Below are positions 11,880-30,591 of a stretch of DNA of 64,000 nucleotides, in pieces; within the stretch, counting starts at the first letter, position 1, and every line of letters begins with the position of its first letter. Origin of the DNA: an uncultured Pelagibacteraceae bacterium (lineage in GTDB: Bacteria; Pseudomonadota; Alphaproteobacteria; Pelagibacterales; Pelagibacteraceae); the NCBI GenBank assembly GCA_902519255.1, contig CABYIV010000001.1:310001-374000 (forward strand), read 5' to 3'. The notes under the pieces are model-generated. The model was not told the origin of the DNA and did not search any database. It worked only from the letters and a program-made list of their open reading frames with translations. The position numbers were made by a program, and so were the translations under genes.

Positions 11880-12239
11880 ATGCCAGATAAATGACTTATC
11901 GCTTTAATTTATTAAAGAGGAAAGTCCGGGCTCTACAAAGACACAGTGCCAGTTAACAGCTGGCGGGGGAGACCCCAGGGATAGTGCCACAGAAAATATA
12001 CCGCCTTATCAAGGCAAGGGTGAAAAGGTGTGGTAAGAGCACACCGGCTAAGTTGGTAACAGCTAGCGCATGGAAAACCCCACTGAGAGCAAGACTGAGT
12101 AGAGATGACATTGTTAGAAATAACTAAAAGCAGTCTTTGGCTAGTCATCAGGGTTAGTTGCTTGAGCTTTAAAGTGATTTAAAGCCTAGATAAATGATAA
12201 GTTTAAAAGACAGAACCCGGCTTATAGTTTATCTGGCAT
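11880..12239 (+). ncRNA. rnpB: RNase P RNA, bacterial class A
   Basis: Universally conserved GAGGAAAGTCCGGGCTC, ACAGAAA.TATACCGCC, and 3' AACCCGGCTTATAG; perfect 12-bp P1 helix ATGCCAGATAAA / TTTATCTGGCAT defines the ends. Confidence 0.95.
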
Positions 12240-12301
12240 TTCATTAAAATTAATTCAAATAATTATTAAATTTTTACATTAGATTTCCATAATATTAGCT
12301 A

Positions 12302-12330
12302 TTGACGCGTTGCAATAAAACCCATAATAT
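12302..12330 (+). promoter_or_regulatory. Predicted mraZ promoter: -35 TTGACG (12302-12307), 17-bp spacer, -10 TAATAT (12325-12330)
   Basis: Sigma-70-like hexamers with 17-bp spacing upstream of mraZ ATG 12364. Confidence 0.5.
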
Positions 12331-12344
12331 CCCATAAAAACCCA
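12321..12344 (-). promoter_or_regulatory. MraZ operator: three TGGG boxes with 10-bp period
   Basis: CCCA at 12321, 12331 and 12341 (reverse strand TGGGTTTTTATGGGATATTATGGG), directly upstream of mraZ. Confidence 0.75.
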
Positions 12345-12363
12345 AATTAGGATAATATGGTTT

Positions 12364-12819
12364 ATGTTTTTATCAACATACGAAAACAAATTGGACAAAA
12401 AGGGAAGGGTTTCAGTGCCTGCATCTTATAGATCATATTTATCAAACATAGGCTACAATGGAATAATTTGTTATCCATCATTTAACAATCTATGTATTGA
12501 AGCATGGCCACAAGATCGAATAGAAAAAATTTCAAATGCAATTGACTCTCTGAATCCTTTTGAGGAAAAGAAAGATTATTTCGCAACATCTATATTATCT
12601 GAAAGTACAAATTTACAATTTGACAGTGAAGGAAGAGTGCAAATAACTCCAAAATTATTAAAACATGCAAAAATCAAAAATAGCATGTTATTTGTTGGTC
12701 AAGGCAAAACATTTCAAATCTGGGAGCCAACTCTTTTTGAGAAATTTAGGGCAAACGCTAGAAAAAAATCAAATATTAACAGAGCAAGTCTTAAATGGGA
12801 AAAACAATTTAATAACTAA
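12364..12819 (+). CDS. mraZ: Transcriptional regulator MraZ
   Basis: [23 protein letters not shown]; duplicated AbrB-like half ([21 protein letters not shown]). Confidence 0.96.
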
Positions 12820-12830
12820 AAGGGGAGAAA

Positions 12831-14279
12831 ATGACAATAAACTTTAAAACACCAGATATAAAAGAACTTAAACCAAGGATTCTAGTATTAGGAGTAGGAG
12901 GAGCCGGTGGAAATGCAATTAATGGGATGATTGATGCTGGTCTTCAAGGTGTTGAGTTTATTGCAGTTAATACAGATGCTCAAGATTTAAGATTAAGTAA
13001 GGCACAAACAAAAATACAAATGGGATTAAATTTAACTAAAGGGCTTGGTGCGGGAGCAAAATTGGATATAGGACAAGCTGCTGCAGATGAATCTTTGAAT
13101 GAGATAGTAAATATTTTACAAGGTGCAAATATGGTTTTTATAACTGCTGGAATGGGAGGTGGGACTGGTACTGGATCAGCACATGTAATAGCCAGAGCGG
13201 CAAAAGAACTTAATATTTTGACAGTTGGAGTAATTACTCTTCCTTTTTTATATGAAGGTCCATCAAGAATGAGAAAGGCTCAACAAGGCTTAGAAGAACT
13301 TCGAAAACATGTTGATACTATTATAGTTGTTCCAAATCAAAATTTATTCAAAATTGCAAGTGAACAAACAACTTTTGAAGAATCTTTTGCTTTATCAAAT
13401 GATGTTTTACTTCATGGCGTTCAAAGTATAACTGATTTAATGGTTAGACCGGGGCTTATCAACTTAGATTTTGCTGATGTCGAAACTGTTATGAGTTCAA
13501 TGGGCAAAGCAATGATGGGTACGGGACAAGCTGAAGGAGAAGGTAGAGCAGTGAAAGCAGCTGAGTCTGCAATTAATAACCCATTAATTGACGATTATTC
13601 TTTAAAGGGAGCCAAAGGTCTTCTTGTAAACATTACTGGAGGCAAAGATCTGAAATTATTTGAGGTTGATGAAGCTGTTAATAAAGTTAGAGCCGAAGTC
13701 GATCCAGAGGCAGAATTAATTATAGGAGCTATAACCGATGAAAGTTTAGACGGACTAATGAGAGTTTCAATTGTTGCTACTGCATTAGATGGACAACAAC
13801 CTGAGCCTAAATCAGTAATTAATATGGTACATAGAATTCAAAATAGAAATCCAGGTTATTCTGAGTTTTCAAATAATGGATCTACTCAATCATTTCAATT
13901 TACAAATAATACCAATTCAATAATTACTAATGGCGCTAATGCTCTTAAAATTGAGGAACAAATAAAAAATGAAGAATTGAGTTCAAAAAGCATAGATAGC
14001 AACGATGTAAATGAAACATCTGGTAATTTAATAAGTGAAGCTTTAGATCAAACCGAATTAGCTGAAGCCAGCTCAGTAAACTCTGAATTTGAAAGCAATA
14101 TAGATAAGCAAGTATCTGAAAATAATGGTTTGGAGAATTTTGAGTTGAGTGATGATGATACTCCAGAGTTATTTAATTCAGATGCTAATGAGGAGTTATC
14201 AACTTCACCACAAGAGATAAACTCTGAGGAAGAAGAAGATTTAGAAATTCCAGCATTTTTGAGAAGACAAAAGAATTAA
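12831..14279 (+). CDS. ftsZ: Cell division protein FtsZ
   Basis: [35 protein letters not shown]-terminal peptide [11 protein letters not shown]. Confidence 0.99.
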
Positions 14280-14297: not shown

Positions 14298-15290
14298 ATG
14301 AATGCCACCATAAATCTGGAAAAACATTTTCCAGTATTACTAAACGAATTAGTTAGTATTATTTCCCCTCTTTATGGTGGCACATTTATTGATTGTACTT
14401 TTGGTGCAGGGGGTTATTCGAAAAAAATTTTAGAAAATAATTCAAATAGCGTTGTAGCGCTAGATAGAGATAATTCTGTCAATAGTATAGCTAATCAATT
14501 CCACACAAAGTTTAAAAAAAGATTTAAATTTTATAACAAAAAATTTTCGGATATTGATCAAATAAAGGAAGATAATATTAGAGCAATTATTTTTGATCTG
14601 GGATATTCGTTAAATCAGATTTCTGATCTAAATAGAGGTTTATCTTTTAATAGCAAAGGTAAACTAGACATGAGAATGGGATTAAATAATTTTTCTTGTG
14701 ATGATGTAATATCAAAAATGAGCCAACAAAGTCTTTTTAAAATTTTCAAGTATTTTGGCGATGAAAAATATGCAAAACCAATATCAAAAAAAATAGTACA
14801 ATTAAGAAAAAATAAAAAAATTAAAACTGAAAATTTAGTAGAAATTATTGAAGGTGTAAAAAAAAAGAAAAGTGGAAAAAATAAATCCACTAAAGTTTTT
14901 CAAGCTCTTAGAATTTTTGTAAATAAAGAAATTACAGAGTTAATAAATGGATTAATCAATGCATATAATATTTTACCAATAGGTGGAGCAATAGCAGTTG
15001 TTACTTTTCATTCTATCGAGGATAAAATAGTAAAGTTTTTTTTTAAAGAATACTCAGAAGTGAAAAATTCTTCTAGGTATTTACCGAAAAGTATTTCAAC
15101 TAAAAAGTATTTAAATTTAACCAAAAAAAAACCATTAACTCCATCATCTAGTGAAATTAATATTAATCCTCCCTCAAGGTCAGCAAAACTTAGATTTGCA
15201 TACAAATTAGAGAATGGATGTAACTTTAAAAAATTTGTTACTAATTTTAATTACTTAACAGATATAGAAAATTTGAACTTTGATGCATAA
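14298..15290 (+). CDS. mraW: 16S rRNA m4C1402 methyltransferase
   Basis: HFPVLLNELVSIISPLYGGTFIDCTFGAGGYS, NRGLSFNSKGKLDMRM, VVTFHSIEDKIVKFFFK (RsmH/MraW). Confidence 0.97.
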   Translation: MNATINLEKHFPVLLNELVSIISPLYGGTFIDCTFGAGGYSKKILENNSNSVVALDRDNSVNSIANQFHTKFKKRFKFYNKKFSDIDQIKEDNIRAIIFDLGYSLNQISDLNRGLSFNSKGKLDMRMGLNNFSCDDVISKMSQQSLFKIFKYFGDEKYAKPISKKIVQLRKNKKIKTENLVEIIEGVKKKKSGKNKSTKVFQALRIFVNKEITELINGLINAYNILPIGGAIAVVTFHSIEDKIVKFFFKEYSEVKNSSRYLPKSISTKKYLNLTKKKPLTPSSSEININPPSRSAKLRFAYKLENGCNFKKFVTNFNYLTDIENLNFDA

Positions 15291-15555
15291 AAAAATTCTT
15301 CTATTTATCCCAATTATTATTCTTATAATTTCAACTGCTTTTACAAAAAATTCCACAAAAAAACTTGATAAACAAATCTTTGAAATTCAGGAAGATATAA
15401 GAGCTCTCAATGATATTTATGAGTTAGTTTTATTTGATTACAATTATCTTACATCACCAAATAAATTAATGGAATATTCCAAAATTTATTTTGATAAAGA
15501 ATTAAAAAAAAAAAAAATTACAGATTTAAAAATTTTTAAATTTAATAATGAATAA
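15280..15555 (+). CDS. ftsL: FtsL-like small bitopic division protein
   Basis: Position between mraW and ftsI, one N-terminal TM, then coiled-coil-like segment. Confidence 0.75.
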   Translation: MMHKKILLFIPIIILIISTAFTKNSTKKLDKQIFEIQEDIRALNDIYELVLFDYNYLTSPNKLMEYSKIYFDKELKKKKITDLKIFKFNNE

Positions 15556-17179
15556 TATTAACGAAAATTTTAAGTATGAAGCAAATAGATCAAATTTAAA
15601 AATATCTTTTGAACGTATATCATTTATTTTCTTTATCTTTTTTATAATTACAATAATTTTTACTTCTAAAACTATCTATCTAGGTTTTAAAAAAACAAAC
15701 CAAACTCAAACTGCAAAAGAAAAAGAGAAATATAGAGCATCTATCATGGATAGAAATGGAAATATTATTGCTAAAACAGTGCGCGTAACCAATTTAGGCA
15801 TAAATCCAAATCAACTAATTAACAAAGAAAAATTATTAATTTCTTTAAAATTAATATTTCCAGAGAAGAATTTTGAAAAGGAAATCAACGGAAAAAAGTT
15901 TTTTTATGTAAAAAAGAAAATATCTCCAGCAAAACTTGAAAAAATAAAATTACTGGGAGAAAAATCGTTCAAAGAGGAAGAAAATATTTCTCGTGTTTAT
16001 CCTAACGGTAATCTTTTCAGTCATATATTAGGACAGATTGATACAGATAACAATGGTGTGTCTGGTATAGAAAAATCTTTTGACTATGAATTAACAACTT
16101 CAAATAAGCCATTAAAGCTTTCTTTAGATACTGATATACAATATTTGATAAGAGAGGAATTGATAAAATTTCAAGAAATTTTTAATAGTTATGGAAGTAC
16201 AGCTATATTAATGAATGTTAATAATGGGGAGATACTTTCAATGGTTTCTCTTCCAGATTATGATTTAAATAAAAGAAAAAATATTTCTGATAAAAAATTT
16301 ATTAATAGATCAACAAAAGGTGTTTATGAGCTTGGTTCAGTTTTTAAAACATTTACACTTGCCGCTGGACTTCATCAAAATGTAATTCAAAAAAATACTC
16401 TATTTGAAAATTTACCTAAGAAAATAAAATGTGCTGGTAGATCAATTTCTGAATATGATTTAGATATTCCATCTAGTCTTACGGCAGAAGAAATATTAAT
16501 TAGATCTGGAAATATCGGTTCAATCAAAATTGCTCAAAAAGTCGGTTTAGAAAATTTTAAAGATTTTCTAGAAAATTTAGATTTATTAAATAAAATACAA
16601 TTTGATATAGAGGAAGTTGGAAATCCAATACCGTTTAAATGGGGAAAATGTAAATTAGCTACATCAGCATATGGCCATGGTATAACAACTACCCCCCTCC
16701 AACTAGCAAAAGCATATGCGATAATTGCAAACGGTGGATATAAAATAAAACCCACTCTAATTAAAAAAGTGGAAAATTTAAAAAAGGGTGATCAAATCAT
16801 AAGTGAAGAGAATTCGAAAATAATTATTCAAATATTAAGAAAAATTGTAACATCCGAACAAGGCACTGCTAATTTAGCAAATATTGATGGTCATGAAATT
16901 GCTGGAAAAACAGGAACAGCTCAAAAATCTATAAAAGGTAAATATTCTAAAAAAAAAATAAATACTTTTGCTTCAATTTTTCCAATATCTTCTCCAAAAT
17001 ATGTTTTAATTGTTTTGTTAGATGAACCAAAATTGAGTGAAACTTATATTTATGAATATAATGATGGTAAAAAAAGGAAGATAATAGGTACACCTTTTAA
17101 TACTGCTGGCTGGACTTCTGTCGAGGTTACCAAAAATATAATTGAAAAAATTGGGCCTATTTTAGCCATAAAATATTAA
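15548..17179 (+). CDS. ftsI: Peptidoglycan transpeptidase FtsI (PBP3)
   Basis: RASIMDRNGNIIAKT, YELGSVFKTFTLAAGL (SxxK), SGN at RSGNIG, EIAGKTGTAQK. Confidence 0.97.
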   Translation: MNNINENFKYEANRSNLKISFERISFIFFIFFIITIIFTSKTIYLGFKKTNQTQTAKEKEKYRASIMDRNGNIIAKTVRVTNLGINPNQLINKEKLLISLKLIFPEKNFEKEINGKKFFYVKKKISPAKLEKIKLLGEKSFKEEENISRVYPNGNLFSHILGQIDTDNNGVSGIEKSFDYELTTSNKPLKLSLDTDIQYLIREELIKFQEIFNSYGSTAILMNVNNGEILSMVSLPDYDLNKRKNISDKKFINRSTKGVYELGSVFKTFTLAAGLHQNVIQKNTLFENLPKKIKCAGRSISEYDLDIPSSLTAEEILIRSGNIGSIKIAQKVGLENFKDFLENLDLLNKIQFDIEEVGNPIPFKWGKCKLATSAYGHGITTTPLQLAKAYAIIANGGYKIKPTLIKKVENLKKGDQIISEENSKIIIQILRKIVTSEQGTANLANIDGHEIAGKTGTAQKSIKGKYSKKKINTFASIFPISSPKYVLIVLLDEPKLSETYIYEYNDGKKRKIIGTPFNTAGWTSVEVTKNIIEKIGPILAIKY

Positions 17180-17190
17180 GAAATTTCATA

Positions 17191-20019
17191 ATGATATTAA
17201 AAAGCTTTTTTAAAAATCTTAAAAAAGATTTTAATAATAAAAGTTTTAACGGATTTGAATTTAATTCAAAAAAAATAAAAAAAAATTATATATTTTTTGC
17301 AATACAGGGTAGTAAATTTAATGGAAATAATTTCATAAATGATGCCATTAAAAGAGGAGCACGAATAATTGTATCAAATAAATTTAAAACTGGAATCAAT
17401 AAAGGTGTATTATATATAAAAGTAAGCGATCCTAGATTAGCCTTATCAAGTTTTGCAAATAAATATTATAATAAAAAACCAAATAATATAATTGCTGTAA
17501 CTGGTACAAACGGTAAATCATCTATAGTCAATTTTTATTACCAGATATTAAAATTTAATAAAAAAAAAGTAGCCTCAATTGGAACCCTAGGCGTCAAATC
17601 GAATGGTGTTAGCTTAAAACTTAATAATACAACTGCTGATGCTATTACAATTAATAAAATACTTGCAAATTTAAAAAAAAAAAAAATTGAAAATGTAATT
17701 TTAGAAGCATCAAGTCATGGTCTTCATCAAAAAAGATTACATGGTATTAAATTTAGCACATCTATATTCACTAATTTAAGCAGAGATCATTTAGATTATC
17801 ACAAAAATTATAAGAATTATTTTAATTCAAAATTAATTTTATTTAATGAGTTGACAAATAAAAATGGAAATTTGATATTTGATAATGATTTTAAATATTC
17901 ACAAATCTTTAAAAAAATAGCTAAAAGAAAAAAATTAAATTTATTAAATATTGGTACATCAGATAGTCATTTAAAAATTAATTCAATTAAAATTTTAAAT
18001 AACTACCAACATATAAAGTTTACTTTTCAAAATAAGGAATATCAATTTAAAACAAGCCTAATTGGAAAAATACAAATTAAGAATTTGATGATGGCTATTG
18101 GAGCAGCGATCAAAAGTAATCTAAGAATTGACGATATTGTTAAAAAAATTAAGTATATTAAACCCGCAAAAGGAAGGCTTGAGATAATCGGAACAACTAA
18201 AGATAATTCAATTATTATTTTAGACTACGCTCATACTCCAGAGGCTCTTAAAACAAGTATAGAAAATATTAAAGAACAATTTGGTTTAAGAAAAATTAAT
18301 ATTGTATTTGGTTGTGGCGGTGAAAGAGATAAAGAAAAAAGACCAATTATGGGCAAAATTGCTAACAAACTATGTAATTATATTTATCTTACAGACGATA
18401 ATCCTAGGAGTGAAAATCCAGAAAATATCAGAGCAAGTATTAAGAAATCAATTTTACCATCTAAAATGATTGAAATACCATCAAGAAAATTAGCTATAAA
18501 AAAAGCAATTTTAAATAGTAAGTCTGATGAGATTTTAATTATTGCAGGAAAGGGACATGAAAACACTCAAGAATATATTAAGAAAAATAAATTTTCTGAC
18601 AAAGATAATATAAAAAAATCAATAATTTTAAAAAATAGAATTTTATCAAATGATTGGAAATTAAATATACTTAAAGAAATTATTAATAACAAAAAATTAG
18701 ATAGAATAAAAAATTTAAAAATTAGCACTAATTCGAAAGAACAAAATAAAGGTAAAATTTTCCTTGGAATTAAGGGGAAATCTTTTAATGGAAATGATTT
18801 TGCAGACGAAGCTCTAAAAAATGGAGCAAAATTAGCAATACTTCAAAATAACAAAAATGATAGTAAAAAAAAGATTAATGTTAAAAGTACTCTAAAATTA
18901 TTATTTAAATTTTCACAAAAGATAAGAATTTCATCTAATGCATCTCAAGTTGCAATTACAGGATCTTCAGGCAAAACCTCACTGAAAGAATTATTAGGAC
19001 AATGTCTTCAAAAAAATTATTCCACAACATTTTCAAAAAATTCATTCAATAATAAATTCGGTTTACCGATTTCATTAATAAATTTAAATAAAGATACAAC
19101 TTATGGAATATTTGAAATTGGAATGGATAAAAAGGGAGAAATAGACTTTTTATCAAAAATAATTAAACCAGACGTTGGAGTTATTACAAATATTAGTTAC
19201 GCGCACGCCAAAAATTTTAAATCTTTATTGGATATAGCTAAAGCCAAATCAGAGATTATTTTCAACATTAGAAAAAATGGTACAATTATATTGAATAAAG
19301 ATGATAATTTTTTTGATTTTTTTTCAAATTTAGCAAACAAAAATAATTTAAATATCATTTCTTTTGGCAAACATAAAAATTCTAATATTAGATTATCTAA
19401 ATTAAAAAAATCTACGAAATCTTATATCATTTATATTGATGTAGCTTCTAAAACTTTTAATTTTAAAATTAATAATAACTTATTACCTTATTTAGATAAT
19501 ATATTGGCTTCTATAGCAGTTTGTAAAAGTTTAAATATCATTGATCAAATAAAAAGTAACTTTTTTTCTAATTATAAAATACCAAGTGGTAGAGGAAATA
19601 TAAAAAAATTCACTATCGGCTCTAAAAAAGTTAATATAATAGATGAAAGTTATAACTCAAATCCATTATCTCTTAATTTCTCAATTAAGAAATTTGATAA
19701 TTTAAAAGTAAATCCAAATAAAAAATTTATGCTACTAGGTGACATGTTAGAATTAGGAAAATATACAAAAAAACTTCATATTGAAGCTGCAAAAGATATC
19801 AATAAGGCAAAGTTCAAAAAGTTGTTTGTTTATGGGAATTATATCACAGAAACATTTAACAAAATTAGAACACAAAAAAGAGGAAAAATACTTAAATCAA
19901 CTAGTGAAATTCTTAATATAATAAAAAATGATTTAAATAATGGTGATTTTTTAATGATAAAGGGCTCAAATTCTACAGGACTAAATCAAATAACCAAACA
20001 AATTGGATCAAAATCTTAA
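17191..20019 (+). CDS. murEF: MurE-MurF fusion: UDP-MurNAc-tripeptide synthetase plus tripeptide:D-Ala-D-Ala ligase
   Basis: Single 942-aa ORF with two complete Mur ligase units: VTGTNGKSSIVNFYY ... HTPEALKTSI ... DDNPRSE (MurE), then ITGSSGKTSLKELLG ... GIFEIGMDKKGEIDFLS ... DESYNSNPLSL (MurF). Confidence 0.95.
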   Translation: MILKSFFKNLKKDFNNKSFNGFEFNSKKIKKNYIFFAIQGSKFNGNNFINDAIKRGARIIVSNKFKTGINKGVLYIKVSDPRLALSSFANKYYNKKPNNIIAVTGTNGKSSIVNFYYQILKFNKKKVASIGTLGVKSNGVSLKLNNTTADAITINKILANLKKKKIENVILEASSHGLHQKRLHGIKFSTSIFTNLSRDHLDYHKNYKNYFNSKLILFNELTNKNGNLIFDNDFKYSQIFKKIAKRKKLNLLNIGTSDSHLKINSIKILNNYQHIKFTFQNKEYQFKTSLIGKIQIKNLMMAIGAAIKSNLRIDDIVKKIKYIKPAKGRLEIIGTTKDNSIIILDYAHTPEALKTSIENIKEQFGLRKINIVFGCGGERDKEKRPIMGKIANKLCNYIYLTDDNPRSENPENIRASIKKSILPSKMIEIPSRKLAIKKAILNSKSDEILIIAGKGHENTQEYIKKNKFSDKDNIKKSIILKNRILSNDWKLNILKEIINNKKLDRIKNLKISTNSKEQNKGKIFLGIKGKSFNGNDFADEALKNGAKLAILQNNKNDSKKKINVKSTLKLLFKFSQKIRISSNASQVAITGSSGKTSLKELLGQCLQKNYSTTFSKNSFNNKFGLPISLINLNKDTTYGIFEIGMDKKGEIDFLSKIIKPDVGVITNISYAHAKNFKSLLDIAKAKSEIIFNIRKNGTIILNKDDNFFDFFSNLANKNNLNIISFGKHKNSNIRLSKLKKSTKSYIIYIDVASKTFNFKINNNLLPYLDNILASIAVCKSLNIIDQIKSNFFSNYKIPSGRGNIKKFTIGSKKVNIIDESYNSNPLSLNFSIKKFDNLKVNPNKKFMLLGDMLELGKYTKKLHIEAAKDINKAKFKKLFVYGNYITETFNKIRTQKRGKILKSTSEILNIIKNDLNNGDFLMIKGSNSTGLNQITKQIGSKS

Positions 20020-21104
20020 TGTTGTTTGAACTTTTTTCAATTCTTGTAGATCAATTTAGTTTTTTGAATGTTTTTAAATATTTAACAGTAAGAACTGGTC
20101 TTTCTATGTTCACAGCTATGTTTATTGTTTTTTTAGTTGGAAACCCATTAATTAATTTTTTTTCTTCAAAACAGATTCATAATCCAATCAGAGAAGATGG
20201 ACCTAGCGACCATATAATTAGAAAAATTGGAACACCTACAATGGGAGGACTAATAATATTACTAGGTGTTTTTTCAGGAGTATTGTTATGGGGTGACTTA
20301 TCAAATCCTTACAATTGGTTTTTAATATTTATTGCAGCTTCTTTTGGATTATTGGGAGCTTATGACGATTATAAAAAAATAAAGTTAAAAAGTTCGAATG
20401 GAATTTCTTCTAAACTAAAGTTCTCTCTACAAATTATTTTAGCTTTGATTGGTATATTTATACTTTATATCACAAGTAATTCTGATCAAATAAACAATCT
20501 ATATTTTCCTTTTTTCAAAAACTTAGTAATCAATCTTGGCTGGTTTTTTATACCTTTTTATATGTTCATATTAGTTGGAGCTTCAAATGCAGTTAATTTA
20601 ACAGATGGTTTAGACGGATTAGCAACAGTTCCTGTTATGTTAGTTGCCGCTTGTTTTGCATTTATTAGTTACGTCTCTGGTAACATAATTTTTTCTGATT
20701 ATCTTCAGATCGCATATATAGAGGGTGTAGGAGAAGCTTCGATTTTTTGTGGATCAATAATCGGGGCTTGTTTAGGTTTTTTATGGTTTAATGCACCACC
20801 GGCAAAAATTTTTATGGGAGACACTGGATCTTTATCATTAGGTGGTTCACTGGGAGCGGTTGGTATAATAACTAAGCACGAAATTGTGTTAGCAATAACA
20901 GGCGGATTGTTTGTTTTAGAAGCTGTTTCTGTGATAGTTCAAGTTATTTCCTATAAATTAACAGGTAAAAGAATATTTAAAATGGCTCCAATACACCATC
21001 ATTTTGAAAAAAAAGGATGGCCAGAGTCAACTGTTGTAATTAGATTTTGGATAATTTCTATTATTCTAGCGATGATTGGATTAGCAACTTTGAAACTTAG
21101 ATAA
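20019..21104 (+). CDS. mraY: Phospho-MurNAc-pentapeptide transferase
   Basis: GTPTMGGLIIL, NLTDGLDGLAT, NAPPAKIFMGDTGSLSLGG, APIHHHFEKKGWPE. Confidence 0.98.
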   Translation: MLFELFSILVDQFSFLNVFKYLTVRTGLSMFTAMFIVFLVGNPLINFFSSKQIHNPIREDGPSDHIIRKIGTPTMGGLIILLGVFSGVLLWGDLSNPYNWFLIFIAASFGLLGAYDDYKKIKLKSSNGISSKLKFSLQIILALIGIFILYITSNSDQINNLYFPFFKNLVINLGWFFIPFYMFILVGASNAVNLTDGLDGLATVPVMLVAACFAFISYVSGNIIFSDYLQIAYIEGVGEASIFCGSIIGACLGFLWFNAPPAKIFMGDTGSLSLGGSLGAVGIITKHEIVLAITGGLFVLEAVSVIVQVISYKLTGKRIFKMAPIHHHFEKKGWPESTVVIRFWIISIILAMIGLATLKLR

Positions 21105-22393
21105 TGAAATTAAAAAATGAAACGTTAAGTAAAAATTTTTTAATTTATGGTTTTGGAAAATCTGGAATTTCATCATTAAAATATTTAAAAAAGAAAAATA
21201 GGTGTTTTATTTTCGATGATGATAAGAAAAAAATTAAAAATAAATATAAAAAATTCTTTATTTCTAAATCAAAATTATCAAATAATAATTTTGATTATAT
21301 AGTTATAAGTCCCGGTATTAATATAAATAGATGCCAGTTATCAAATTATTTAAAAAAGAACCAAAAAAAAATTATTACTGATTTTGATATTTTTTATAAA
21401 TTTAACCCTGAAGTTTTAACAATTACGATTACTGGTACGAACGGAAAGTCAACTACAAGTAAGTTGCTTTATGATATTTTAAAGAAACACCATTATGATA
21501 CTAGGCTAACTGGAAATATTGGAAATCCAATATTAGAGGAAAAAAGAGTTACAAAAAATACTATCTTTGTTATTGAGGCTTCTTCTTATCAGCTGGCTTA
21601 TAGTAAATATTTCAAATCAAAATTTTCTATAATCATTAATATTTCCCCAGATCATTTAGAAAGGCATAATACAATGAAAAATTATGTATTATCAAAATTA
21701 AAATGTGTAATAAGACAAAACGAAAATGATATAGCAATAATAACAAACACAAATTTATTGAAAGACTTATTAAGAACTAAAAATATAAAATCTAAAATAA
21801 TATACGTAAGTAAAAATAAGTATTCACATTTAAAAAATAAATTAAGTAATGATAATTTTAAAAATTCAACAAATTTTCAAAATTTAAATTTTTTATTTGA
21901 GCTATCTAAACATATGAAACTTAATTTAAAAACTGTAATAAAAACTATTAATAAATTTAAACCTTTGAAATTTAGACAGGAAGTGATCCATCAATCAAAA
22001 TATTTAAAAATAATAAACGACTCTAAGTCAACAACATTATCTTCTACTGTTCCATTTTTAGAATCTAATGAAAAAATTTTATGGATCTTGGGAGGATTAT
22101 TTAAAAAGGGTGATAAATTTAATTTAAATAAAAAGTATTTTAAAAATTTAGAAGCATATATTTATGGAAAAGATAGACAAGTTTTCCTCAAACTATTTAA
22201 AAATAAAATTAAAGTTAATCTATCAAAAGATCTGAGAAATACTCTTAAATTAATTCCAAACCTTAAGGATATACGAACAAAAGTTACAGTTTTATTTAGC
22301 CCATCGGCTGCATCATTTGATCAATACAAAAATTTTGAAGAAAGAGGTAGACAATTCAATATGTTAATTAAAAGATATTTACCAATTGAATGA
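21104..22393 (+). CDS. murD: UDP-MurNAc-alanine:D-glutamate ligase
   Basis: ITGTNGKSTTSKLLYDIL, GNIGNPI, NISPDHLERHN; position in dcw cluster. Confidence 0.95.
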   Translation: MKLKNETLSKNFLIYGFGKSGISSLKYLKKKNRCFIFDDDKKKIKNKYKKFFISKSKLSNNNFDYIVISPGININRCQLSNYLKKNQKKIITDFDIFYKFNPEVLTITITGTNGKSTTSKLLYDILKKHHYDTRLTGNIGNPILEEKRVTKNTIFVIEASSYQLAYSKYFKSKFSIIINISPDHLERHNTMKNYVLSKLKCVIRQNENDIAIITNTNLLKDLLRTKNIKSKIIYVSKNKYSHLKNKLSNDNFKNSTNFQNLNFLFELSKHMKLNLKTVIKTINKFKPLKFRQEVIHQSKYLKIINDSKSTTLSSTVPFLESNEKILWILGGLFKKGDKFNLNKKYFKNLEAYIYGKDRQVFLKLFKNKIKVNLSKDLRNTLKLIPNLKDIRTKVTVLFSPSAASFDQYKNFEERGRQFNMLIKRYLPIE

Positions 22394-23499
22394 ATAAATA
22401 TTTTGATACATTTTATGATTGGTGGAAAAACATCGATAAAACAATTTTTTTGATAATAAGTCTATTATTTTCACTAGGATTGTTCTTTTCTTTAGTTTCA
22501 ACTTCAATAATTGCATCAGATAAATTAAACACAAATTCTTACTATTTTTTTTTAAAACACTTAATTTTTGTTTTAATAGGAATATTTTTAATTTTATTTT
22601 TATCTCTACTAGATCAAAAAATTTTAATTAGGTTATCAATCGTATTATTTGTTATCACATTTATAAGTTTATTCTTAGTTCCTTTAATTGGAGTGGAGGT
22701 TAAAGGGTCAAAGAGGTGGTTAGATATTGGCTCATTACCTAGGTTTCAACCTATTGAAACTTTAAAACCTTTTTTTGTTATTGTTATTTCACTAATAATT
22801 TCATTAGAAAAAAAAAACCTTTATATAAAATATCTCTTGAGTTCAGCCATTTTGGTGCCAATTATAATTTTACTCTTATCTCAACCAGACTTAGGACAAA
22901 CATTATTAATAATCTCTGTTTGGCTCGCTATTATTTTTGTTTCAGGAATAAATTTATTACTTTTTGCAATCTCATTATTAGCTGTGAGTTCATTAACTCT
23001 ATTTTTAGTCTTTTTGGTACCAAAATTTGAATACATAAGAATAAGATTAATGTCATTTTTAGACAATTCTAGCGGCAATAATTACCAGGCTGATAAAGCA
23101 AGTGATGCAATATCCAGCGGAAGTTTTTTTGGAAAAGGAATAGGTGAAGGAACCTTAAATTCAAGAATACCAGAAGCACATACAGATTACATAATTTCTG
23201 TAATTGCAGAAGAATTTGGAGTAATTATCTTGTTAGGTATAATATTACTTTATTTAGTCTTATCTTATAGAGTTTTAAAAAAAATAAATTTTACAAAAAA
23301 TAATAATTTTAAACTTATATTAGTTGGAAGTATTTCAATAATACTATTACAAACTTTCATTCATATTGGTGTAAATATAAGAATGCTTCCTACTACAGGC
23401 ATGACTATGCCATTTATTAGTTATGGTGGTTCTTCAATAGTTGGAACATCAATTTTAACTGGAATAATATTAAATTTGACGAAGAGAAAATTAAATTAG
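22390..23499 (+). CDS. ftsW: Lipid II polymerase FtsW (SEDS)
   Basis: KGSKRWLDIGSLPRFQPIETLKP, PEAHTDYIISVIAEEFG, MTMPFISYGGSSIVGTSI. Confidence 0.97.
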   Translation: MNKYFDTFYDWWKNIDKTIFLIISLLFSLGLFFSLVSTSIIASDKLNTNSYYFFLKHLIFVLIGIFLILFLSLLDQKILIRLSIVLFVITFISLFLVPLIGVEVKGSKRWLDIGSLPRFQPIETLKPFFVIVISLIISLEKKNLYIKYLLSSAILVPIIILLLSQPDLGQTLLIISVWLAIIFVSGINLLLFAISLLAVSSLTLFLVFLVPKFEYIRIRLMSFLDNSSGNNYQADKASDAISSGSFFGKGIGEGTLNSRIPEAHTDYIISVIAEEFGVIILLGIILLYLVLSYRVLKKINFTKNNNFKLILVGSISIILLQTFIHIGVNIRMLPTTGMTMPFISYGGSSIVGTSILTGIILNLTKRKLN

Positions 23500-23500
23500 T

Positions 23501-24577
23501 ATGAAAAATATACTTATAGTAACAGGTGGTTCTGGTGGTCACGTAGTACCATCTACCTCTTTATTTGAACATTTAAAAAACAAATTTTCTGTAAAAATAG
23601 TATCTGATTTGAGAGGAAGTAAATATATAAATACTGAAAAATTTAAATATGAATTAATAGATGTACCTAATTTATTTTTAAAACCTTATTTACTTCCAAT
23701 AAATATTTTTAAATATTTTCTAAACATTTTTCAATCTATTAGATTTTTAAAAAACAATAAGACAAATATCTTGATTAGTACTGGTGGGTACATGACCTTT
23801 CCATTTTGCTTAGCAGCATTTATATTACAAAAAAAAGTTTTCTTGTTTGAGCCTAATAGTGTTTTAGGTAGATCTAACCGTTTTGCTTTAAAATTTTCAA
23901 CAAAAATAATTTGTTACGATGAAAATTTAAGAAACTTTCCAATTAAATTCAATTCTAAAAAAGTTATAGTCAAACCTATTTTAAAAAAAGAGATATATAA
24001 CTTCGAAAAAAATATAGTTAGTTTAAAAAAGGAAATAAAAAAAATTCTTATCATCGGTGGAAGTCAAGGTGCATCGTTTTTTGACGAAAATATTACTGAA
24101 TTAATTATCGAAATTTCAAAAAAACGAAATTTCGAAGTTATACAGCAAATATCAAATAAGAGTAATTTATCATCAATAAAAAATAAATATGACAAATCAA
24201 ATGTAAACTATAAATTTATTGAATTTACCAATGATATTCATGAACTTTATAATGGTATAGATCTAGCAATTACTAGAGGAGGCGCAAATACATTAAGTGA
24301 ACTTTCATTTTTAAATATACCGTTTATTTCAATACCTCTTCCGTCTGCAAGAGACAATCACCAATTTTATAATTCAGAATTTTACTATAAAAAAAATTGT
24401 TGTTGGTTAATAAATCAAAAGAAATTTGAATCTAAAAAATTTTCAAAAATGATATTTGAAATATTTAATGATTATCAAAATTACAACGAAAAATTTAAAA
24501 ATCTTAAGGAAATTACTAAAAAAAATACTTGGAATGATATAAATAATAAGATTATAGAAATTATAGATGAAAATTAA
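23501..24577 (+). CDS. murG: UDP-GlcNAc:lipid I GlcNAc transferase
   Basis: VTGGSGGHVVPSTSLFEHL, ISTGGYMTFPF, GGSQGASFFDE, AITRGGANTLSELSFLNIPFISIPLPSARDNHQ. Confidence 0.97.
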   Translation: MKNILIVTGGSGGHVVPSTSLFEHLKNKFSVKIVSDLRGSKYINTEKFKYELIDVPNLFLKPYLLPINIFKYFLNIFQSIRFLKNNKTNILISTGGYMTFPFCLAAFILQKKVFLFEPNSVLGRSNRFALKFSTKIICYDENLRNFPIKFNSKKVIVKPILKKEIYNFEKNIVSLKKEIKKILIIGGSQGASFFDENITELIIEISKKRNFEVIQQISNKSNLSSIKNKYDKSNVNYKFIEFTNDIHELYNGIDLAITRGGANTLSELSFLNIPFISIPLPSARDNHQFYNSEFYYKKNCCWLINQKKFESKKFSKMIFEIFNDYQNYNEKFKNLKEITKKNTWNDINNKIIEIIDEN

Positions 24578-25949
24578 TATCGGAAAAACTGAACTAATTC
24601 ATTTTGTTGGAATTGGTGGCATTGGTATGAGTGGCTTAGCATTAATAATGGATAGTTTAGGTTTTAAAATACAAGGAAGTGACAAATCGGATAATAAAAA
24701 TCTTAATTTACTAAGAAAAAGAAAAATTCCAATTCATTTAAATCATAATAAACAAAATATAAAAAATTGCACTGTATTAGTAGTTTCGTCAGCTATAAAA
24801 AAATCAAATCCTGAATATAGGCATGCTAAAAAATTAAACTTGCCGATATATAAAAGAGGAGAACTACTAGGTCATATAGTTTCTTTAATGAAAAATATTG
24901 TTGTGACAGGATCACATGGCAAAACAACTACAACATCAATTTTGTCAAATATTTTGAATTACGCAAAATTAGATCCCACAATAATAAATGGAGGTGTTTT
25001 GAATTCAATAGGGAGTTCGGCAAAATTAGGAAAAAGCGACTGGAGTTTAGTTGAGTCAGATGAGTCGGATGGAAGTTTTCTTCAAATACCTTTTAATTAT
25101 TCAATAATAACCAACATTGATAACGAACACTTGGATTATTACAGAACTATGAAAAATTTAAAAAATAAATTCATAGAATTTATTGATAAAACACCTTCTT
25201 TCGGAAAGGCTTTTCTGTGTTTAGATGACAAAAATGTAAAAAATATTTTACCAAAAATTAAAAATAACAATTACTATACATTTGGTTTAAATAAGAAATC
25301 AAATTTTCATATTTTCGATATAATTCAGAATAAAAATTATTCAAAATTTAATATTAGAATAAAAATACCGGGTAAAACAAAAATTATAAAAAATATTTCA
25401 ATACCATTGTTAGGTTTGCATAATATTAAAAATGCAACATCTGCATTGGCAGTAGCTTTTTCGATTGGAGTATCAGATAAAATAATTAAATTAGGTCTCA
25501 AAAACTTCAATGGAGTCCAGAGAAGATTTAATTTCTTATTTGAAATTAATAAAGTACCATTTTTCGACGATTATGCTCATCATCCAACTGAAATTTCATC
25601 GGTATTAGATGGTGTCAGCAAAGTATATAATAAAGAAGAAATAGTTTGTATTTTTCAACCACATAGAATTTCAAGAGTAAAGAATTTAAAAATCGAATTT
25701 TCTAAATGTTTTAAAAATGCAAACACAGTTTTACTTTGTCCAATTTATAAAGCTAGCGAAACTATAAAGTTAGGATTCTCATATACTTCATTTGCAAAAT
25801 TAATTGCAAAAAATTCTAAAGTTAATTTGATAATGCTTAAAAATGAAATAGATTTAAAAAAAATTACTAAAAATATTGCCTTTGGAAATAAAATTTTTAT
25901 TGCTATGGGTGCAGGATCTATAACAAATTGGGTAAGAAATCTTAATTGA
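24567..25949 (+). CDS. murC: UDP-MurNAc:L-alanine ligase
   Basis: HFVGIGGIGMSGLALIM, VTGSHGKTTTTSILSNIL, VESDESDGSFLQI, YAHHPTEISSVL. Confidence 0.98.
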   Translation: MKINIGKTELIHFVGIGGIGMSGLALIMDSLGFKIQGSDKSDNKNLNLLRKRKIPIHLNHNKQNIKNCTVLVVSSAIKKSNPEYRHAKKLNLPIYKRGELLGHIVSLMKNIVVTGSHGKTTTTSILSNILNYAKLDPTIINGGVLNSIGSSAKLGKSDWSLVESDESDGSFLQIPFNYSIITNIDNEHLDYYRTMKNLKNKFIEFIDKTPSFGKAFLCLDDKNVKNILPKIKNNNYYTFGLNKKSNFHIFDIIQNKNYSKFNIRIKIPGKTKIIKNISIPLLGLHNIKNATSALAVAFSIGVSDKIIKLGLKNFNGVQRRFNFLFEINKVPFFDDYAHHPTEISSVLDGVSKVYNKEEIVCIFQPHRISRVKNLKIEFSKCFKNANTVLLCPIYKASETIKLGFSYTSFAKLIAKNSKVNLIMLKNEIDLKKITKNIAFGNKIFIAMGAGSITNWVRNLN

Positions 25950-25950
25950 T

Positions 25951-26859
25951 ATGGAATTAAAAGATATTGAAGATTTTAAAAATAAATATAATGCAGATCT
26001 GTTTTTTAATACTGATATCAAAAAATTCAATTGGTTTAATATAGGAGGTAAATCAAAAATCTTTTTTAAACCAAAAAATCTAATAGAATTAAAAGAATTC
26101 CTTAAACTTTATAATAATAGAGGAAAAATGTTTATATTAGGAATGGGTTCAAATGTGTTATTTAAAGATAATACTTATGAAGGAGTTATAATCAAACTTA
26201 GCAACAATTTTAGTACATTATCAAAATTAAAACCAGACACAATAATAGCAGGCTCAGCTTGCCCACAAAAAAAACTTTCAGAATTTGCACTAGAAAATGG
26301 AATAAGTGGTTTTGAATTTATGTACTGTATTCCTGGTTCGGTTGGAGGGGGTCTTCAAATGAATTCTGGATGTTTTGGAACAGAATTTAAAGACAAATTA
26401 ATTTCTCTGCAATGTATTGATTCAAGGGGAAATATAAAAGTTATCCCATCTAACAAAATTAAATTTAAATATAGAAAAATAGAATTAAATGAAAATTTAA
26501 TTTTTTTAAGTGCTACTTTTAAAGGTGATTTATTAAATAAAAATAAAATAAAAAATTTGATGGAAAAATTGGCGATAAAAAAAAATAATTCTCAACCTTC
26601 AAAAATTAAGACTGGGGGTAGTACTTTTAAAAACCCAATCGATCAAACAACAAAAAAAGCTTGGGAACTCATAAAAGAATCAGTTCCAGAAAATATAAAT
26701 TTTGGAGATGCCACTATATCAAAAAAACACTCAAATTTTTTTATTAATAAAAATAACGCTTCATTTGACGAAATGAACTCTTTAATAAATTTTGTAAAAA
26801 AAAATGTTAAAGATAAAACTGGGATTAACATTAATTTAGAAATCAAAATTATAGAGTAA
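25951..26859 (+). CDS. murB: UDP-N-acetylenolpyruvoylglucosamine reductase
   Basis: FNIGGKSKIFFKPKN, LGMGSNVLFKD, GFEFMYCIPGSVGGGLQMNSGCFG, KTGGSTFKNP. Confidence 0.97.
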   Translation: MELKDIEDFKNKYNADLFFNTDIKKFNWFNIGGKSKIFFKPKNLIELKEFLKLYNNRGKMFILGMGSNVLFKDNTYEGVIIKLSNNFSTLSKLKPDTIIAGSACPQKKLSEFALENGISGFEFMYCIPGSVGGGLQMNSGCFGTEFKDKLISLQCIDSRGNIKVIPSNKIKFKYRKIELNENLIFLSATFKGDLLNKNKIKNLMEKLAIKKNNSQPSKIKTGGSTFKNPIDQTTKKAWELIKESVPENINFGDATISKKHSNFFINKNNASFDEMNSLINFVKKNVKDKTGININLEIKIIE

Positions 26860-27779
26860 TGAAAAAAATTTTAATTTTGGCGGGTGGATATTCAAAAGAA
26901 AAAGAAGTTAGTATGCAAACAGCAAAAAGCGTTTACTCTGAATTAAATAAAGATAGAAAATATAAAATTAAGGTTGTAAATCCTGATGGTAATTTTGTTA
27001 ATGTATTAAGAAACTTTAAGCCTAATATAGTATTAAATTTATTGCATGGTAGATATGGAGAAGATGGCTATATTCAAGCAATTTTAGAAACAGAAAAAGT
27101 AAAATATACCCATTCAGGTGTATTATCATCTTCTTTAGCAATAGATAAGGAGCTTTCAAAAAAAATTTTTATTAAAAATAACATTTTGACGCCTAAGTAT
27201 CTTAAATTCTCATACAGAAATAATATAAACAAGTTAAAATTGTTAAATAATTTGCAAAAAAAAATTGGCTTTCCTCTAGTTGTAAAACCTCTTAATGAAG
27301 GCTCTAGTGTAAATGTTTTTATATGTAACAAAAATAATATTTTAAAAACTCTTACAAAACTAAATGAATATGGAGAAGTTTTATTGGAAAAATATATACC
27401 TGGGAGAGAAATACAAGTTGCAATTTTAGAAAATAAAGTGCTCGGAGCTATTGAGCTTAGACCAACTAGAAAATTTTATGATTATCAAGCCAAATACAAC
27501 CCAAAAGCAAGAACGGAACATATAATTCCTGTGGAAATTTCAAAAAAAAAATATAAGGAATTAACAAAAATTGCTTTAAAAGCGCACAAAATTTTAAATT
27601 GTAGAGGAGTTACACGATCAGATTTTAGGTATTATAAAAACTCCTTTTATTTACTAGAAACTAACACACAACCAGGAATGACTTCACTTTCACTAGTGCC
27701 TGAAATAGCAAATTTTAATAACATTACTTTCAAAAATTTGATAATAAAAATTTTGGAAGATGCTTCAATCAATAAATAA
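26859..27779 (+). CDS. ddl: D-alanine--D-alanine ligase
   Basis: LAGGYSKEKEVSMQTA, LLHGRYGEDGYIQAILE, VVKPLNEGSSVNVF, GVTRSDFRYYKNSFYLLETNTQPGMTSLSLVPE. Confidence 0.97.
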   Translation: MKKILILAGGYSKEKEVSMQTAKSVYSELNKDRKYKIKVVNPDGNFVNVLRNFKPNIVLNLLHGRYGEDGYIQAILETEKVKYTHSGVLSSSLAIDKELSKKIFIKNNILTPKYLKFSYRNNINKLKLLNNLQKKIGFPLVVKPLNEGSSVNVFICNKNNILKTLTKLNEYGEVLLEKYIPGREIQVAILENKVLGAIELRPTRKFYDYQAKYNPKARTEHIIPVEISKKKYKELTKIALKAHKILNCRGVTRSDFRYYKNSFYLLETNTQPGMTSLSLVPEIANFNNITFKNLIIKILEDASINK

Positions 27780-28449
27780 AAAAAAAATATATTTTTATTT
27801 GGTTTCATTTTTATTTATATCATCAACCTTCAATAATAATTTAATAAGTAATTTGAAAAATGTTTTTAAGATTAGAGAAGTAAACGTTGAAAATGTTAAA
27901 AAAGAAATTAATGACAATATTTTATCAAATACTAGTTTTTTACTAGATGAAAATATTCTTTATATTGACAAAAAATTTCTTCTAGAAAAGTTTGATAAAC
28001 TAAAATTTATTCAAAGCATAAGTATCAAAAAAAAATACCCTTCAATTATAAATATTCAAACTAAACAAACTAATTTAATTGCGATTACTTATTTAGACCA
28101 AAAAAAATATTTTGTAGGACAAAATGGAAAATTTATAATAGCAAAACAGATTTCAAATAAAAAAAAATTACCAACTATTTTTGGAAAATTTAAACCAGAT
28201 GATTACATTTTTCTTCAAAGAGAACTTTTAAGTCATAAAATTGATTTAAATGAAATAACTAGATACTATTTTCACAAAAATAAAAGATGGGATTTATATT
28301 TTGCAAATAATATTATAATTCAGTTGCCTAATAAAAATATTTCTGAAGCGATAAATCTTTTCAAAAAATTTAAATCAAAAAACAACATAAACTCAAATAC
28401 AATTATTGATTTAAGAATTAAAAATAGATTAATTTTAAGAAATGGGTAA
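27760..28449 (+). CDS. ftsQ: FtsQ division protein (POTRA)
   Basis: Position between ddl and ftsA; FKIREVNVENVKKEI ... NILYIDKKFLLEKFDKLKFIQSISIKKKYPSIINIQTKQ typical of FtsQ POTRA. Confidence 0.9.
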   Translation: MLQSINKKKIYFYLVSFLFISSTFNNNLISNLKNVFKIREVNVENVKKEINDNILSNTSFLLDENILYIDKKFLLEKFDKLKFIQSISIKKKYPSIINIQTKQTNLIAITYLDQKKYFVGQNGKFIIAKQISNKKKLPTIFGKFKPDDYIFLQRELLSHKIDLNEITRYYFHKNKRWDLYFANNIIIQLPNKNISEAINLFKKFKSKNNINSNTIIDLRIKNRLILRNG

Positions 28450-29608
28450 AAACAGTTATTTCAATGTCATCGATCTTGGATCATCTAAAATTCGATTTGC
28501 ATCTTTTGATAATAACCTCGAAGAAAAATTTTCAGAATCAATAGAAATATATATAAACGAGAATTTACAAAGTCATTTTGAGGCAATTAATAAAATTATA
28601 AAAAAAGCTGAAAAAAAATTTTCTGATCATATCGAAGACATTGTTTTAATTCTAGACACTGCCCAATTATTTACAATAGATATATCATTAACAAAAAATT
28701 TAGATAGAAGTTCAAAAATAAATAAATTATATGAGCCTTTAATATTAGAATTAAATCAAATAATTAAATCATATTATGATAAATATTATTTATCCCAGAT
28801 AATAATTGATAAATGTATAATCGATGACGGAAAAATATTTGAAGAATTTCCTAAAGATCAATTAGTAGATAATAATTTAAAAGTTGATTTTAAATTAATA
28901 TGTTTTCCAAAATTGTTTATTAAGAAAATAAGAGATGATTTTATTAAACTTAATTTAAATATAATAAATATATTTTGTTCTTCTTATATAAAATCTCAAT
29001 CATATGTAAAAAAAATAAGTGAAAAAAAAACCACTTTTTTAGATGTTGGATTAAGAAGATCTTCAATTTTTTTTTTCGAAAATAAAAAAATTAAATTAAT
29101 CGAAACAATCCCAATAGGAGGGCAACATATCACAACAGATATCTCAAAAATTTTTAAAATCTCTGAAGTGGATGCAGAAAAATTAAAAAAATCATTTAAT
29201 AAAACTGATACAGAGTTTTCGTACAAAAATAAAACCTCAGAAGATAAGATGGTTATTTATGATATTATTAATAAAAATATTTCTGTAGATTTACTAAAAA
29301 AAGTGATTTTGTATAGAGTTCAGGAAATCATGGATTTAATCTTTAAAAAATCAAATATTAATGATCGTAAAAATACTTTAGAAGGCTCAGATTTATTCTT
29401 GATTGGCGAAGGATCAAAACTACTTAACAATAATTCTTTTTATTTGGATGATAGATTTGGTTTTAAGTCAATTAATTATTATAGCGAGACAGATGTTCAA
29501 ATCTGTAAATGTGGCCTAGAAAATCATAAGATAAACTATGAACTACCAAAAATAACTAGCAAAAAACAAGGAGTTTTCGAAAAATTTTTCAATTTTTTCG
29601 ATAAATGA
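28442..29608 (+). CDS. ftsA: Cell division protein FtsA
   Basis: NVIDLGSSKIRFASF, FLDVGLRRSSIFFFENKKIKLIETIPIGGQHITTDISK. Confidence 0.93.
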   Translation: MGKNSYFNVIDLGSSKIRFASFDNNLEEKFSESIEIYINENLQSHFEAINKIIKKAEKKFSDHIEDIVLILDTAQLFTIDISLTKNLDRSSKINKLYEPLILELNQIIKSYYDKYYLSQIIIDKCIIDDGKIFEEFPKDQLVDNNLKVDFKLICFPKLFIKKIRDDFIKLNLNIINIFCSSYIKSQSYVKKISEKKTTFLDVGLRRSSIFFFENKKIKLIETIPIGGQHITTDISKIFKISEVDAEKLKKSFNKTDTEFSYKNKTSEDKMVIYDIINKNISVDLLKKVILYRVQEIMDLIFKKSNINDRKNTLEGSDLFLIGEGSKLLNNNSFYLDDRFGFKSINYYSETDVQICKCGLENHKINYELPKITSKKQGVFEKFFNFFDK

Positions 29609-29670
29609 TGGTATTTTCTTGTAATATTTCTTGAGTATTTAATCTACACATCATTTTATATAAGCATTGT

Positions 29671-30591
29671 GTGTCAATACTTACTCAAAAAACAATTTCA
29701 AAAAAATTATCTTTTAGTGGAATAGGCATTCACTCAGGCAAAAGTGTAAAGCTAGATATTTTACCTGCAGGCCCAAATACAGGAATTATCTTTAAAAGAG
29801 TAGATCTAAAAAAAAATAATTTAATATACCCACTTTATAATAACGTTTCGGACACAAAACTTTGTACAACCATATCTAACAAACAAGGTGTAAGAGTTTC
29901 AACGATCGAACATCTTATGGGCGCTCTTTATGGTATAGGTATTGACAATGTTATAATTGAATTAGATTCAGAAGAAGTTCCAATTTTAGATGGTTCAGCA
30001 AGAATTTTTGTTGAAGGTATTAACAAAACTGGAATAGCATTTAGCGACCAGCCAATTAAAATTATTAAAATAAATAAAAATATAAGTTTAAATGATGGTG
30101 ACAAATCTATTTCTCTAGATACTTCAAATGTTACAAGTGAAATTGAATTCGAAATAAAATATAAAAATAAAATAATTAATACTCAAAAAAATAAAATTAA
30201 TATTTTTGAAGATAATTTAGAAGATATATTTAACTCTAGAACTTTTTGCCTATATGAAGACATAGAAAAATTAAAAAAATTAAACCTTGGTAACGGTGGA
30301 AGTTTAGAAAATGCAATAGTGGTTAAAAATAACGAGATATTAAATAAAGAAGGGCTAAGAAATAATCTTGAATTCGTAAATCATAAAATATTAGACTGTA
30401 TGGGCGATTTATTTTTATCTGGATACAAAATAATAGGTTCATTAAAATGCTCTCAAGGTGGCCATAATTTGACAAATAAATTGTTAAGAAAAATTTTTAG
30501 TGATAGAGAAAATTTCTCTCTTATTGAAATTAAAGGTAAACAATTACCTCATACTTTTGCAAATTATCAAAACTTAAAATCAATAGCTTAA
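29671..30591 (+). CDS. lpxC: UDP-3-O-acyl-N-acetylglucosamine deacetylase, GTG start
   Basis: QKTISKKLSFSGIGIHSGKSVKLDILPA, TIEHLMGALYGIGIDNVIIELDSEEVPILDGSA, FVNHKILDCMGDLFL. Confidence 0.97.
   Translation: MSILTQKTISKKLSFSGIGIHSGKSVKLDILPAGPNTGIIFKRVDLKKNNLIYPLYNNVSDTKLCTTISNKQGVRVSTIEHLMGALYGIGIDNVIIELDSEEVPILDGSARIFVEGINKTGIAFSDQPIKIIKINKNISLNDGDKSISLDTSNVTSEIEFEIKYKNKIINTQKNKINIFEDNLEDIFNSRTFCLYEDIEKLKKLNLGNGGSLENAIVVKNNEILNKEGLRNNLEFVNHKILDCMGDLFLSGYKIIGSLKCSQGGHNLTNKLLRKIFSDRENFSLIEIKGKQLPHTFANYQNLKSIA

Follow-up and report, generated by a model that had tools for sequence, protein, structure and literature searches.

The segment at 12302-12345 of the window (the whole 64,000-nucleotide stretch of Pelagibacterales, or SAR11, DNA that was analysed) is very probably the promoter-operator of the dcw operon (mraZ-ftsZ-rsmH...), at which MraZ would repress both itself and FtsZ. 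SAR11 genomes are small. Among marine microorganisms, SAR11 has been called the most abundant group (PMC10308909), and no account of how it sets its FtsZ levels was found in the literature searched. If the prediction is true, a single operator would dial FtsZ directly in SAR11. MraZ-box autoregulation is already known, as is MraZ control of an ftsZ-containing operon in mycoplasmas (PMC8475190). The present site differs in combining a relocated ftsZ, a -10 hexamer lying in the spacer between boxes, and a box strand inverted throughout the class.

Table 1. Coordinates of the promoter, the predicted operator and the neighbouring genes in the window.
Feature	Position	Strand	Remarks
rnpB (RNase P RNA)	11883–12240		between AmpD-like amidase gene and mraZ
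-35 hexamer TTGACG	12302..12307	+	98-100% conservation in each TTGAC column (49 diverse genus loci)
MraZ box 1 (predicted)	12321..12324	-	TGGG; invariant in genus
-10 hexamer TAATAT	12325..12330	+	fills box 1–box 2 spacer; in spacer in 103/110 genus loci
MraZ box 2 (predicted)	12331..12334	-	TGGG; invariant in genus
MraZ box 3 (predicted)	12341..12344	-	TGGG, just 3' of inferred start site; invariant in genus
mraZ ribosome-binding site AGGA (inferred)	12349..12352	+	from sequence; G-rich conserved column block
mraZ	12364..12819	+	151 aa, two MraZ (AbrB-like) domains; NCBIfam NF001477; Pfam PF02381
ftsZ	12831..14279	+	11 bp past mraZ stop; TIGR00065 382.6 bits
Rest of dcw cluster	14298..30591	+	without ftsZ between ftsA and lpxC

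Box array and promoter upstream of mraZ

Three CCCA tetramers are found exactly 10 bp apart (Table 1), and the minus strand reads TGGGTTTTTATGGGATATTATGGG, that is, TGGG-N6-TGGG-N6-TGGG. The first-pass annotation had described this array exactly, and it is the single such triple in the 1.07-Mb genome, where the reversed control pattern did not occur. In the window, the triple was unique even with one mismatch allowed, the number expected from dinucleotide shuffles being 0.01. Further MraZ targets were sought genome-wide, and elsewhere just TGGG-N6-TGGG pairs were present, in counts similar to those of the reversed control. Direct TGGG-type repeats with a 10-bp period 5' of mraZ, as in an MraZ-box operator, were thus found here.

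The -35 and -10 hexamers are separated by 17 bp. The intergenic region contained 7 sigma-70-like matches with 10.2 expected, and a single match alone is not significant. In the 49 diverse genus loci of Table 1, the TA...T positions of the -10 were 100% conserved. Both hexamers are kept in relatives, and the promoter predicted earlier from the -10 at this place holds. The earlier statement that the boxes overlap the -10 was also borne out, with the added detail that the hexamer makes up the whole 6 bp that separate box 1 from box 2. The transcription start sites used here were inferred from the sequence. Inside mraZ, a weak promoter match at 12439 was at chance level, and the 11-bp gap and the order of mraZ and ftsZ are conserved.

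Gene order of the dcw cluster

The MraZ of the window scored 182.6 bits against NF001477 (cut-off 162), with PF02381 matched in two stretches. It also matches solved MraZ PDB chains, such as 1n0e, and homologues of solved structure make its fold clear. A DxxxR motif, which we take to be a mark of the MraZ family, was read off the translation in each domain. The cluster runs mraZ, ftsZ, rsmH, ftsL, ftsI, murEF, mraY, murD, ftsW, murG, murC, murB, ddl, ftsQ, ftsA and lpxC, in which murD, ftsW, murG, murC and murB were named from position and sequence. The usual place of ftsZ in dcw clusters is after ftsA. One copy of the gene was found in this genome, as in each of four relatives with complete or nearly complete genomes.

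The claim that ftsZ directly follows mraZ was confirmed for the whole order, as the two genes were adjacent in 146/146 Pelagibacterales loci whose next gene could be scored. Wherever the neighbour could be scored, the gene following mraZ was rsmH in the other alphaproteobacteria (105/105), as it was in all 71 gammaproteobacteria. The mraZ–ftsZ order was shared by the two genomes sampled from family f10, which belongs to another order and is possibly HIMB59/AEGEAN-169. These 1.4-Mb genomes (L372 in G266 and L379 in G151) carry mraZ-ftsZ-rsmH, with the -10 in the box register. In a FastTree phylogeny of MraZ and RsmH from 113 loci, which rests on two genes with strong composition bias, f10 was mixed with Pelagibacterales and two other loci. 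The order common to SAR11 and a second small-genome family is a rare character and may bear on SAR11 placement.

Some other features of the locus were observed. Throughout the order, the AmpD-like amidase gene was also found, some 1.3 kb 5' of mraZ, a distance at which rnpB would fit in between. In addition, a single fused murE-murF gene encodes a 942-aa protein (17191-20019). FtsA (28442-29608) is unusually divergent, with 69 bits where the curated cut-off is 176, in contrast to the well-conserved FtsZ.

Conservation, strand and register of the boxes

Conservation of the boxes in relatives had been named beforehand as the test of the operator reading. An MraZ match was detected in 72/91 genus genomes, and exactly one triple was present in 71 of these 72; in the remaining one, the match starts at base 3 of its contig, with no upstream DNA. 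A loss of mraZ in the other 19 genomes was considered and rejected. Among the 16 that were checked, 15 had no FtsZ match either and the last had no more than a C-terminal part of FtsZ; the locus is therefore missing from these assemblies, not lost. Among 116 genus loci, the triple was present in all 115 with enough flank, and two boxes are still visible in the other (L068), which has 35 bp of upstream sequence. In the 49 loci less than 80% identical upstream, all 12 box columns were invariant (mean 2.46 bits), and the region upstream of the -35 gave 0.27 bits, in an alignment anchored on the triple from which no full-flank locus was left out.

Furthermore, box pairs with 10-bp phasing on the same strand were found in all 149 Pelagibacterales loci with upstream sequence. 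The two further loci of the 151 collected (the collections overlap somewhat) have 0 and 12 bp upstream. Five boxes are usual in the sister family f2 and 2 to 4 in other Pelagibacterales, again on the same strand. The first-pass annotation would have been refuted by boxes that are not conserved in relatives; instead, the triple was present in all 71 scorable genus genomes and box pairs throughout the order. The best sigma-70-like -10 of the genus loci starts 4 bp after the first box start (CCCA-TAATAT-CCCA) in the fraction given in Table 1. In other Pelagibacterales, 25/33 loci have it in a spacer; in 4 more it directly precedes the first full box, with the register unchanged.

The boxes were also linked to the presence of mraZ. 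Among 14 alphaproteobacterial rsmH loci without MraZ (profile search, 1 kb upstream), one of them a split rsmH (L398), the box pair was absent in 13. Three loci called MraZ-less by single-sequence search turned out to have a divergent MraZ. The boxes are thus kept with mraZ and lost with it, with one exception: L392, from a 0.8-Mb genome, retains TTGACG and three boxes, followed by a short stretch to rsmH and no detectable mraZ. This looks like a recent loss of mraZ, the short leader being its decayed remnant. Because the boxes are invariant in relatives and absent without mraZ, they are best read as an MraZ operator. The MraZ autoregulation predicted earlier, with ftsZ as the second gene, is well supported by this footprinting and by the co-presence and co-absence of boxes and mraZ.

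The class was sampled evenly, mostly with one or two genomes per family. Outside Pelagibacterales and f10, a CCCA-N6-CCCA pair occurred within 300 bp upstream of mraZ in 93/107 mraZ-bearing alphaproteobacterial genomes. Across 124 loci, a spacing of 6 was found in 108, of 16 (the next multiple) in 97, of 17 in 15, and of any other length in 0–5. The boxes were antisense to mraZ in 93/93 of these other alphaproteobacteria, 3 of which had a stray sense pair as well. In contrast, among 71 gammaproteobacterial loci, sense pairs were present in 34 and an antisense pair alone in 1 (Fisher p ~3e-30, for genomes that are not fully independent). As judged from these sequences, the operator has opposite orientations in the two classes. 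No statement of this inversion was found in the literature searched, and it may still be known. The strand flip suggests that no directed contact with RNA polymerase is needed, and a flip between two large classes constrains how MraZ, a widespread and poorly understood protein, works.

The register also differed. Unlike in SAR11, CCnATGnTATCC was found in 66/93 of the remaining alphaproteobacteria, with TTGAC 17–18 bp upstream of its TAT in 59/60 cases; this spacing indicates that the box itself seems to be the end of an extended -10. TTGAC was in the spacer register, or at most 1 base off it, in 68/74 occurrences in the same group. In gammaproteobacteria, the first box most often begins 15 bp past the start of the -10, in agreement with the downstream position published for E. 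coli and Burkholderia cenocepacia (PMC7761207). Six perfect TGGG boxes with the 10-bp period stand in a row in one alphaproteobacterial genome of 1.5 Mb (G357:C1:196032-196085, TGGGATATAA repeats).

Predicted control of FtsZ and comparison with known systems

We infer that MraZ made from the first gene would multimerise and bind the three direct TGGG boxes. As the boxes are about one helical turn apart, they all lie on one DNA face, on which the multimer would hold them. Since they bracket the -10 and extend to the start site, MraZ sitting on them should keep RNA polymerase off the promoter. In this way, MraZ would limit the synthesis of itself and, by way of the second gene, of FtsZ. FtsZ supply would then track MraZ repression, on the assumption that mraZ contains no strong private ftsZ promoter. 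With ftsZ relocated beside mraZ, the main cell-division protein is probably under the direct control of one switch. We lean, with little beyond even confidence, towards a wider reading, in which the move of ftsZ to second place and the operator woven round the -10 would give SAR11 an FtsZ feedback with one operator and one operon, and the flipped strand of the whole class would reflect an occlusion independent of orientation.

The sign of the regulation was deduced from the geometry and is not certain, because deletion of mraZ lowers dcw transcripts in Neisseria elongata and its overexpression raises them, so that dcw expression is sustained by MraZ there (PMC9395523). Hence MraZ might bind the boxes and yet activate or buffer transcription. 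This is unlikely, since boxes bracketing the -10 and covering the inferred start site are in a blocking position, the strand flip between the classes disfavours a fixed contact with RNA polymerase, and a repressor role has been ascribed to MraZ in both E. coli and Mycoplasma genitalium (PMC8475190).

The operator might instead serve another regulator with a 10-bp-phased TGGG site, with the proximity of mraZ incidental, as mraZ occurs without box pairs in 14/107 alphaproteobacterial genomes. We consider this highly improbable, as the boxes track the presence of mraZ, lie upstream of it whichever gene follows (ftsZ or rsmH), and match the known E. coli operator. An AT-rich region makes tetramers bearing G or C conspicuous, and the repeats could be a chance or compositional pattern or a feature of an RNA leader. 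The conservation data refute this, as spacer 2 and the flanks vary in the genus alignment around invariant box columns. Moreover, the triple appeared in 0/20,000 dinucleotide shuffles of the 123-bp rnpB–mraZ intergenic region, and box 1 precedes the inferred start site and so would be missing from the transcript. Repression by MraZ thus remains the preferred reading.

MraZ-box binding and autorepression have been published (Eraso et al. 2014, as summarised by PMC8475190 and PMC7761207). In E. coli Pmra (mraZ1p), mraZ is likewise preceded by three TGGG boxes with an exact 10-bp period, placed at -43, -33 and -23 relative to its start codon. However, they are on the mraZ-sense strand, as in the gammaproteobacterial layout with boxes 3' of the -10, and begin 15 bp after the -10 start, whereas the boxes here are antisense with the -10 within the array; in addition, rsmH rather than ftsZ follows mraZ in E. 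coli. The resemblance to E. coli-type repeats proposed at first therefore held for the core and the 10-bp phasing and failed for the strand relative to mraZ and the position relative to the -10. With boxes on the opposite strand and downstream of the -10 in E. coli, the SAR11 site is not an E. coli copy. MraZ repression has been reported there for the first 11 genes, mraZ to murC (PMC7761207).

In Burkholderia cenocepacia, PmraBc has 7-nt repeats with 3-nt spacers, giving the same 10-bp period, and MraZ binding to a fragment that carries them was verified by EMSA (PMC7761207). It differs from the present site in having four repeats, which are reported to follow the -10 like those of E. coli (PMC7761207), and in its gene order. 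In M. genitalium (mraZ-mraW-MG_223-ftsZ), MraZ represses the ftsZ-containing operon, and the boxes occur in that place alone genome-wide (PMC8475190). However, the box there is AAAGTG[T/G], ftsZ is the fourth gene, and the bacterium is unrelated and wall-less. The literature searched gave nothing usable on the SAR11 dcw order or on MraZ structures with DNA. The dcw leader of Rhodobacter sphaeroides (sRNA UpsM) is likewise an alphaproteobacterial mraZ promoter region, with a mapped start site (PMC5089854). A word search of that paper gave no mention of MraZ binding or repeats. The R. sphaeroides leader has 268 nt and a terminator, whereas here 123 bp lie between rnpB and mraZ.
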